From Clostridia bacterium (GTDB taxonomy: Bacteria > Bacillota > Clostridia > Oscillospirales > Acutalibacteraceae), in the NCBI GenBank assembly GCA_017466365.1, contig JAFTUG010000011.1:124001-188000 (forward strand): a stretch of DNA of 64,000 bases. Direction: 5' to 3'. A program made the translations under genes and the position numbers. Of the stretch, positions 23,827 through 28,627 are shown piece after piece. A model generated the notes under the pieces. The model had not been told where the DNA came from, ran no database searches, and saw only the letters and a program-made list of their open reading frames with translations. How positions within the stretch are numbered: position 1 is the first letter of the stretch; each line of letters starts with the position of its first letter.

Positions 23827-24177
23827 ATGTTACCCTACAAAAAATCAAATGTCCCTCTTGCTAAAAATCTGCGAAAAAACATGACACCGTGGGAACGTAA
23901 GCTGTGGTATGAGTTTCTTTCGGGATATCCTGTAAGATTTCAACGGCAAAAATCAATCGGCGACTTTATTGTTGATTTTTATTGTGCAAAAGCAAAGCTT
24001 GTTATTGAACTTGACGGATCACAGCATTATAATGAAAACGATATGGCAAAGGATAAAATCCGCACGGAAAAGCTTGAAGAATTTGATTTGACCGTTATCC
24101 GCATTCCGAATAATGAGATTGATGAGAATTTTTATGGTGTGTGTGAATACATAGATTCTTTTGTTAACAAAAAATAA
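23827..24177 (+). CDS. DUF559 endonuclease-like protein, copy 2
   Basis: A 116-aa paralogue of the gene at 21257, with ERKLWYEFLSGYPVRFQRQK, IGDFIVDFYCAKAKLVIELD, GSQHY and LTVIRIPNNEIDENF. The conserved D and E/xK-type residues of the restriction-like core are retained. AAGGAG sits 6 nt before the ATG. It lies between inverted repeats (23785-23802 and 24207-24224). Codon use is more AT-rich than in the flanking fucose genes, which suggests separate arrival. Confidence 0.8.
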   Translation: MLPYKKSNVPLAKNLRKNMTPWERKLWYEFLSGYPVRFQRQKSIGDFIVDFYCAKAKLVIELDGSQHYNENDMAKDKIRTEKLEEFDLTVIRIPNNEIDENFYGVCEYIDSFVNKK

Positions 24178-26520: not shown

Positions 26521-26557
26521 TTGCATAAAAAATAAAAGAGCCGATGCACGGCTCTTT
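26521..26557 (-). terminator. Terminator of the asparaginase operon
   Basis: AGAGCC (26537-26542) pairs with GGCTCT (26550-26555); on the minus strand the stem is followed by TTTTATTTTTTATG. Confidence 0.75.
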
Positions 26558-26563
26558 TTGGTT

Positions 26564-27541
26564 TTATTTTATAATTTCGTTTGCTATCGGCTTTTTGGCA
26601 AATTCAACGATATCCTTACCAAGGCTTACGGCAGTCCATATTTTCATGTATGCGGAAATATATGTGCCGAAAGGCAGGGGGATTATGCCCATTTCGTCAA
26701 AAAGCTTTGTGCTTTCATAGTTTATTCCGGGAAGAACGTTTGCAACAAAAACGGGAATGCTTTTCTCCTTTGCCCTTTTGCAGAAGCTTCGCAATGCAGA
26801 ACTTGCCGTGTTGAGCGTTGCGGAATGATAAGGCTTAATAAGAACAGCCTTTATGCCGTCAAGAGAATAAGCAAAGCTGTCGCCGGGGCGACTGTCAATA
26901 ACAAGGATATCCGAAGACTCGGTAAAAGGAATAAATCCCAATCCATTGCAGTTAACCGCAACGGTTTTACCCGTGTTGATTATTTTTTTGCCGTCATATG
27001 AAGCATACGGAAAACCGTCAATGCTGAATATATTTGCGCTGCATTCGCTGTGCTGAAATATATGGGAAGCAATATGGATGTCCGCAAATTCCCTGTTGTC
27101 ATTTTTATAAGAAACAAAAATACCGCCCGCCGGTTTGCTTCGTATAAACTCAACCGCCGCTTTGAAGTTGGCATGTCCGTTCGTTCTTTCGTCCTCAAGA
27201 GGATAATCCGAAGAAACAAGAACAACGGGGATATCGCATCCGCAAACCGAGTATTCAAGAGCCGCTGCGGTGTATTGCAGAGTGTCTGTTCCGTGAGTGA
27301 CAATAATCCCGTCATAATCGCCCTCAAGAGCGCTTATGACCTCTTTTTGCAGCATGTTAATTTCAGCGGCAGATAAATTTTCGCTCAAAACCGTATAGGG
27401 TGCCTTTGTTTCAAAAATAACATCATCAGGTGATTGATAAGTGTTTATCAGGGTGTATTTTGAATTGCTGTCAGTGGAAAGCCAGCCTTCTTTAACGACG
27501 CATCCGATTGTTCCGCCCGTAAAAATAACAAGAATTTTCAT
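26564..27541 (-). CDS. Type I L-asparaginase
   Basis: Hydrolyses L-asparagine to aspartate and ammonia. The 325-aa protein has both catalytic threonine motifs: FTGGTIG at residues 7-13 and VTHGTDTLQYTAAAL around 80-95, plus VVLVSSDYPLEDERTNGHANF. No signal peptide is seen, which fits the cytoplasmic type. It is the third gene of a minus-strand operon, 50 nt after the TIR-V4R gene, an unusual company for a catabolic amidase; a broader amidase activity is possible. Confidence 0.87.
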   Translation of the reverse strand: MKILVIFTGGTIGCVVKEGWLSTDSNSKYTLINTYQSPDDVIFETKAPYTVLSENLSAAEINMLQKEVISALEGDYDGIIVTHGTDTLQYTAAALEYSVCGCDIPVVLVSSDYPLEDERTNGHANFKAAVEFIRSKPAGGIFVSYKNDNREFADIHIASHIFQHSECSANIFSIDGFPYASYDGKKIINTGKTVAVNCNGLGFIPFTESSDILVIDSRPGDSFAYSLDGIKAVLIKPYHSATLNTASSALRSFCKRAKEKSIPVFVANVLPGINYESTKLFDEMGIIPLPFGTYISAYMKIWTAVSLGKDIVEFAKKPIANEIIK

Positions 27542-27591: not shown

Positions 27592-28587
27592 TTATTTTGT
27601 TTTTAATTCAAACACGCATCTTGTTTTAAATTTACTTTTTAACGGACACTCAACACAGGTAAGCTCAACCTCGACAGAGTTTAAAAGTGTTTCAACAACT
27701 CCTGAAGAATAGCCGCGAATAAAAGAGCAGATTTTTCTTTTCTTTTTATGATCAACAATAAAAGGCTCGTTTATGCAGATTTTTCCGTTAAGGCAATCGT
27801 TTTCTTCGTCGATAAACAGATTTGAGGAGAAATGTCCCCAACCAACAGCTGAATCGAATTCACACCACTTATTGATTTTCATTTTGATATCCTCAAATGA
27901 ATACCCGGTGTCCCATTGATTGTTTATTCTTTCGGCAAAGTTTTTGCCACTGACATAACCGCTTTCAAAAAAGATATTTTCAGCTTCTTCGCTTCCTGCA
28001 AGAGACTCAACCTTCTCATAAATACCGCCCATCATGCTTACAAATGTATCTGTTCTGAAGCTTACATTTCTTTGATGATCCTTGGGATTGACCATTATGC
28101 CTCTTTCAGGATAATAATCAAAAACGGTGGTTTTGGATAAGTCCTCGCGCTCGTTTTTTACGGGGTTCGGTTCTTTGACACGAAGTGTAGTGGGGATATA
28201 CTTTGAAACCTCATTGAGAATATCAGAAAAATAGACTTGAGGATTATCGGGATATGCAATAATCCAATGCTTTCTGCCTAAATAATATCTGTAATCATCA
28301 ATCAGCTCAAAATCTTCGATGAAGACGGGAAGCAAAGTCTTTTTCTTCTCGAAAATCACATCAACTTCATTGAGAACATGTTCGGATTCATTTATCGCCT
28401 TTGATGCAATAAGCAAAACAGCAGAACTCTTGTCAATAGCATCAATCAAAGCGGATGCATAGGGTTTTCCGCCGTCTATATCTCTGGGCGCAATAAAACA
28501 TGATATATCATGTTTTTCAAGATACTCCATCAATTGATATGCAATAGTTTTATCATGACTCGAATAGCTTATAAATATCTTCTTCAT
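27592..28587 (-). CDS. TIR domain fused to a V4R-type sensor domain
   Basis: A 331-aa cytoplasmic protein. Residues 1 to about 135 form a TIR domain: KKIFISYSSHDKTIAYQLM, CFIAPRDIDGG, SAVLLIAS and LLPVFIED, with E74 in VLNEVDVIFE at the position of the NADase catalytic glutamate. Residues about 195-331 look like a V4R (4-vinyl-reductase) ligand-binding domain: FFESGYVSGKNFAER, then ICSFIRGYSSGVVETLL and the cysteine cluster C311, C314, C324 before VFEL. TIR domains in bacteria often cleave NAD or signal in defence; V4R domains bind small ligands or metals. I infer a ligand-gated TIR enzyme. ATG at 28587 has CAGGG 7 nt upstream; in-frame ATGs at 28593 and 28605 are worse placed. Confidence 0.78.
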   Translation of the reverse strand: MKKIFISYSSHDKTIAYQLMEYLEKHDISCFIAPRDIDGGKPYASALIDAIDKSSAVLLIASKAINESEHVLNEVDVIFEKKKTLLPVFIEDFELIDDYRYYLGRKHWIIAYPDNPQVYFSDILNEVSKYIPTTLRVKEPNPVKNEREDLSKTTVFDYYPERGIMVNPKDHQRNVSFRTDTFVSMMGGIYEKVESLAGSEEAENIFFESGYVSGKNFAERINNQWDTGYSFEDIKMKINKWCEFDSAVGWGHFSSNLFIDEENDCLNGKICINEPFIVDHKKKRKICSFIRGYSSGVVETLLNSVEVELTCVECPLKSKFKTRCVFELKTK

Positions 28588-28627
28588 ACACATACCCTGA
28601 CCCATAAAATCAAATTTTTTAATAAAA

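Follow-up and report, generated by a model that had tools for sequence, protein, structure and literature searches.

The question of which signal might govern a TIR domain joined to a V4R-like sensor is raised by an open frame on the minus strand of a Clostridia bacterium contig (27592..28587 of the window, by which the whole analysed stretch of 64,000 nucleotides is meant). To our knowledge, the sensor-fused TIRs of known input all sense nucleotide signals or nucleic acids, and V4R is known to date as the sensory domain of transcription factors and other regulators. A full-text search of the open-licence PMC literature returned no paper on a TIR-V4R fusion (the one that came up for the two domains together concerns a human receptor), none placing V4R in an antiphage context and none pairing an asparaginase with a TIR or NADase in a defence or operon context. 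The frame was singled out by a sequence-only reading, whose observation is borne out: it is open at these coordinates and encodes a TIR domain followed by a distant V4R relative. The rare TIR-V4R fusion is genuine. The frame can also be read from position 28605 (337 aa in the list of open reading frames); the ATG at 28587, giving 331 aa, is the start that aligns with the three relatives described below, and it agrees with the residue numbering used earlier. On the minus strand the TIR domain covers approximately residues 1-140 (28168..28587) and the V4R-like domain approximately residues 152-331 (27595..28134). Our best explanation, drawn from sequence comparison and advanced tentatively at a little under even chances, is that a ligand, a metal or the redox state would gate the protein as a TIR NADase, and that the asparaginase-like protein encoded beside it would have the ligand as its target or belong to the same response.

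Relatives of the fusion protein

The fusion is rare, and four distinct full-length members were found in all, the window protein and three further ones. A scan of one genome from each of 84,980 species, made with a single-protein query that reaches close relatives only, yielded two loci, one with 79% identity in a goat colon MAG (L032) and one with 45-46% identity in a dairy cattle colon MAG (L033); both records, from ruminant colon MAGs, are titled Clostridia. The remaining member, with 56% identity, came from the family sample (L003 in genome G064), in which 36 of 398 genomes gave some match, full-length in two of them and confined to the TIR part in the others. Matches were found in 13 of the 398 genomes of the phylum sample, full-length only in the window's own genome, which was also the single one matched by the C-terminal profile among the 394 genomes of the order sample. 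Within the genus, 9 of 45 genomes showed some match and two encoded the full-length protein, namely the window genome and G1306, the latter taken to be the same genome as that of L032, hence the count of four distinct members. The full-length protein was present in 1/22 genomes of the genus to which the L033 genome belongs, and in 1/2 of the genus of G064. No V4R protein with a TIR domain occurred among the eight V4R loci of the class search (7/148 genomes). The survey of TIR-V4R fusions and their neighbours that had been proposed added three full-length members, each next to an asparaginase-like gene.

Two further observations concern these families at large. A second TIR protein is encoded on the window's contig, outside the window, as a 589-aa frame matching the query TIR with E = 1.7e-12 (L002/L047). 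Stand-alone V4R frames of other Clostridia were accompanied by a GGDEF/GGEEF protein in the same 3-kb stretch at four of five loci (L052, L053, L054 and L056; none was seen in L055), which suggests that V4R provides the input to cyclic-di-GMP-type enzymes at those four loci.

Genomic setting of the cassette

The fusion gene is followed on the minus strand, 50 nt downstream, by a gene for a 325-aa asparaginase-like protein (26564..27541; PF00710, E = 3.1e-30), and a terminator-like hairpin downstream of the latter (26534..26558, minus strand) closes the unit. Since the asparaginase-like gene comes next in all four loci, the unit consists of these two genes; the operon makeup as proposed earlier had overlooked this PF00710 partner. 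The three genes earlier taken as one unit ahead of the ribosomal operon do run in line on the minus strand, diverging from rpsJ; the first of them, however, stands apart. That gene, P0003 (28628..28942, minus strand, 104 aa), lies upstream of the cassette and outside it: it matched in 30 of the 45 genomes of the genus, mostly without the other two genes, versus 2/45 for the cassette, and its candidacy as a cassette part was ruled out on these counts. A promoter-like site upstream of P0003 (28978..29006, minus strand; TTGCCA-17-TAGAAT, 10 of 12 positions) could serve the cassette too, although it is weak given that the region holds 16 such sites against 8.8 expected.

Within the limits applied, searches of Pfam, NCBIfam, PADLOC and PHROGs gave no match for P0003 itself. 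Many genomes of the genus encode this 104-aa type of protein, of no known family, in divergent orientation to the S10 operon (L124-L152); among 29 other loci, 12 have rpsJ next to it, and several of the 29 are cut by contig ends.

Among the cassette-less loci of that set, 18 of 28 carry a terminator-like hairpin at most 130 nt from the P0003 stop, as do 12 of the 14 most similar ones, and no hairpin was found within the same distance in the window and L133, which both have the cassette. In genome G1314 (L126), P0003 and its hairpin are followed by a fucose isomerase gene with nothing between them, and the latter is 91% identical over 977 nt to that of the window; rpsJ was not found on the other side of P0003 within the stretch examined there. 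Because G1314 thus presents an empty site, the cassette can be placed between P0003 and the fucose isomerase gene in the window as a segment that G1314 lacks. Its composition is also distinct: among the 42 window frames of at least 150 aa, the fusion gene has the lowest GC3 (0.36) and the partner the second-lowest (0.42; median 0.49), which suggests that the cassette was acquired here, not lost elsewhere. The cassette is a small accessory unit of two genes, patchily inherited.

Defence context

TIR NADases are common defence effectors, and a patchy accessory cassette of odd composition invites the alternative that the protein acts in anti-phage abortive infection, with the same TIR NADase output and a V4R half sensing a molecule made or released by phage. 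In PADLOC, moreover, the TIR half has matches to the TIR portions of models such as SAVED5--SAVED_TIR (E = 2.7e-7). The surroundings argue against this alternative. Ten neighbour proteins of the four loci (two in the window, three in L032, four in L033 and one in L097) were compared with PADLOC models, and the matches at E up to 0.01 were all weak or partial. The strongest came from a 116-aa frame at 23827-24177, matching mREase_II over 69 of its 116 residues (E = 1.1e-7), with DpdF at 2.4e-5 and two weaker models. A sigma-factor-like frame of L032 matched CARF3 within residues 124-173 (E = 0.0013 and 0.0027), and the neighbours in L033 matched TGT (0.0022, a phosphopantetheinyl transferase), PDC-S11 (0.0044) and PD-T4-5 (0.0061). 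A defence island was considered for these loci and rejected, the neighbour matches being judged partial or due to chance, with no complete system seen among these ten neighbours. The 116-aa frame lies about 2.4 kb from the cassette, past the fucose isomerase gene, and is of some interest in itself for its partial matches to endonuclease models.

The mobile-element records searched point in the same direction. A tblastn search with the V4R half (E up to 0.01) gave no match among 72,556 plasmid records or among 50,697 phage records, and no copy was confirmed on viral contigs in two scans (queries A1 and A2). The division of sequence change within the protein also bears on the matter, as the V4R half is better conserved than the TIR half in all six pairs of members (V4R/TIR identities of 85/74, 64/49, 56/34, 67/49, 56/39 and 59/41%). 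This is the reverse of what would be expected for a sensor engaged in an arms race with phages, and disfavours a link to defence; stronger conservation of the V4R half suits a fixed small ligand. The link to defence that had been envisaged for this protein found no support among the neighbours and records examined, and we regard the anti-phage alternative as rather unlikely; a defence role is possible, without positional support in the four loci.

TIR-STING and TIR-SAVED effectors are likewise sensor-fused TIRs, with sequence matches confined to the TIR part, but the fusion has neither a STING nor a SAVED domain and no cyclase was seen beside its gene. It differs from Thoeris in that the partner of the fusion gene is asparaginase-like and not ThsA: the partner gave no ThsA match in PADLOC that would make a ThsA/ThsB pair, and the match of the fusion protein to ThsB_TIR in Pfam is under the cut-off.

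The asparaginase-like partner

The partner resembles type I asparaginases and GatD, matching PF00710 and asparaginases of the PDB over its length with the TGGT and THGTD motifs, but it scores far under the NCBIfam equivalog cut-offs (83.5 bits versus 260.5 for the type I asparaginase model TIGR00519) and is therefore called asparaginase-like. Its active site is unusual. Of the Thr-Lys-Asp triad, T85 and D86 are kept; the position aligned with the catalytic lysine (K162 of the type II asparaginase from E. coli) holds no conserved lysine in 32 aligned relatives, and the alignment has a small gap there. The subfamily with this property is broad in the bacterial family, keeping TGGT, LSE and HG[TS]D with no conserved lysine at the usual catalytic place; it may be a different amidohydrolase.

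Whether this gene belongs functionally to the cassette is a separate matter, as it could be a passenger present by chance, in which case only the TIR-V4R protein would matter. The asparaginase-like family matched in 70 of 200 genomes of the bacterial family, 68 of which had no TIR-V4R match of full length, and no TIR-V4R protein was found at the asparaginase-like loci nearest in score (G190, G126, G080 and G139). Since the family mostly occurs without a TIR gene, the two genes may be only loosely paired. In a tree of 32 copies, moreover, the four linked ones are mixed with unlinked ones and three changes are needed, although a single clade of the four is not rejected (AU p 0.206). Against chance stands the arrangement itself: the four cassettes lie in four different gene neighbourhoods, and in each of them the partner is directly downstream, in the same order and on the same strand, at gaps of 50, 20, 9 and 9 nt. 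The partner profile matched once per genome in each of the four cassette genomes. A passenger is thus unlikely, and the reading in which the partner would act in the same response as the TIR-V4R protein is retained.

The TIR half

Residues 4-109 match the Pfam family TIR_2 (PF13676) with E = 2.9e-18, scoring 67 bits where the cut-off is 28, and the family is listed for all four members. The NADase-type glutamate claimed for this domain is present: E74 (codon at 28366-28368) is invariant in the alignment of the four members, as is S7, and position 68 is Ser in three of them and Thr in the fourth. The closest precedent is Cat1, the CARF-TIR effector of type III CRISPR systems, which also combines a TIR and a ligand-binding domain in one chain. 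The alignment between them is weak overall (E = 0.025) and ungapped up to E74, which falls on Cat1 E74, and with it S7 and S68 fall on active-site residues as listed in the available part of the Cat1 account (PMC12162218). The equivalent of Cat1 D33 is Ala in three members and Asp in one, and in that same part of the account the D33A change reduces activity in vitro only partly (PMC12162218). The likeness to Cat1 ends at the sensor, as its CARF domain senses cyclic oligoadenylate whereas that of the fusion is V4R-like, with no CRISPR gene among the neighbours examined. The invariant S7 and E74, the Cat1 alignment and the merely partial effect of D33A make NAD cleavage by the TIR half plausible.

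Some TIR domains serve assembly only, and the TIR half could accordingly be a non-enzymatic scaffold through which the protein regulates the asparaginase-like enzyme or another partner. The loss of the D33 equivalent in three of the four members would fit such a role, but S7 and E74 are kept although the TIR identity falls to 34% in the most distant pair of members, and we consider a mere scaffold improbable. An NADase-type output therefore stays in the favoured reading, in which it would be gated by the C-terminal half.

The V4R-like half

With the single sequence, Pfam gives two partial matches, XylR_N at residues 197-228 (E = 0.049, under cut-off) and V4R (PF02830) at residues 275-329 (E = 0.12; 12.9 bits versus a cut-off of 31), in the domain order of XylR/DmpR sensors. 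As its score is under the curated cut-off, the domain is filed as a distant homologue, V4R-like, and not as a member of the Pfam family; V4R is listed for all four members at E up to 1 (best E = 0.075). Profile comparison gives a significant match. When all frames of at least 90 aa in the collected loci were ranked against a profile of the four C-terminal halves, five V4R frames came right after the four members (E = 0.0074 to 0.26), and three multi-domain V4R frames were not among the high ranks. With hhalign, the four halves matched these five Clostridial V4R frames, which are the best-ranking five of eight against the same C-terminal profile, with a probability of 84% and E = 7.4e-6 over 121 columns, versus 0.4% and E = 0.14 for a control asparaginase profile. 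Adding three PDB sensors to the V4R frames gave 87.8% and a score of 43.5, while 30 column shuffles reached at most 20.4. Against those three phenol sensors alone (CapR, PoxR and MopR) the match was only 4.7% (E = 0.0086), and no V4R chain was found in the PDB by the profile of the four halves.

The residues conserved in the four members agree with this assignment. The GxxxG pairs G210/G214 and G292/G296 are invariant, and two such pairs are described for V4R helices 2 and 5 in the part of PMC2253512 available. Likewise invariant are C287, E308, C311, C314 and C324 (27616..27729, minus strand), a cluster resembling the zinc site of DmpR/MopR. The available parts of two accounts give three Cys and one Glu as the zinc ligands of MopR-type sensors (PMC10715001; PMC7264223); C287, E308, C311 and C324 align with them, the last spacing being 13 and not 8 and C314 being extra. 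The sequence-only reading was therefore right about a V4R-like C-terminus and too narrow on its details: its three-cysteine cluster is real and larger, with four cysteines and a glutamate, and the domain exceeds the residues 195-331 allotted to it, conserved sequence beginning near residue 152. That the half is instead an unrelated Cys-rich domain, as the Pfam score under cut-off, the missing PDB match and the weak match to the phenol sensors alone would allow, is very improbable, since the match to the V4R-frame profile, the shuffles, the GxxxG pairs and the Cys/Glu pattern agree on V4R.

The nature of the input can be narrowed by comparison with the known sensors. DmpR, MopR and PoxR share with the fusion the XylR_N-V4R order and the GxxxG pairs, and have a set of three Cys plus one Glu which the cluster of the fusion resembles, but their output is an AAA+/sigma54 module and that of the fusion an N-terminal TIR; the last two cysteines of DmpR, moreover, are spaced by 8 and those of the fusion by 13. 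In MopR, the Trp that anchors phenol lies 21 residues before the first zinc Cys. The stretch of the fusion between W250 and C287 contains no Trp, which makes phenols improbable as its ligand; for the other phenol-anchoring residue, a His, the comparison gave no reliable placement. MsvR, a V4R regulator of methanogens, also has three conserved cysteines in its V4R domain, which are thought to sense redox according to the available part of PMC3729527; its output is DNA-binding, and its last two cysteines are again 8 apart versus 13 in the fusion. A metal, heme-like or aromatic ligand had been suggested before. For a TIR-V4R fusion that combines an NADase-type glutamate with a cysteine cluster resembling a metal site, it is reasonable to suppose an input that responds to a ligand, a metal or redox.

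Proposed mechanism and implications

In the mechanism that we propose, two V4R halves would pair as a homodimer whose pocket is braced by zinc or thiols. The TIR domains would come together when a small ligand binds, or else when the cysteine site is lost or oxidized, and the assembled TIRs would form a composite active site and cleave NAD+, whereby the cell would be slowed or stopped. The most likely target of the asparaginase-like protein, which would share its transcript with the fusion, is the ligand or else a metabolite belonging to that response: as the protein is also found in relatives that lack the TIR gene, it would possess a substrate of its own to offer the sensor. A more specific version is possible but on the unlikely side, namely a two-gene NAD+-depletion system triggered by a small molecule or by redox, in which V4R would drive the TIR NADase and the asparaginase-like enzyme, lacking the usual catalytic lysine, would make or remove the trigger. 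If that version holds, the system may serve a metabolic or an interbacterial purpose and not an anti-phage one.

The partner, from a wide family whose active site is unusual, offers a tangible clue to the possible trigger, and the two-gene size of the system puts the trigger within reach of screens in which ligands and redox conditions are tried on the purified protein. If true, a V4R input would be a trigger of a kind new to TIR enzymes, and would extend the range of TIR triggers to hydrophobic ligands, metals or thiol redox.
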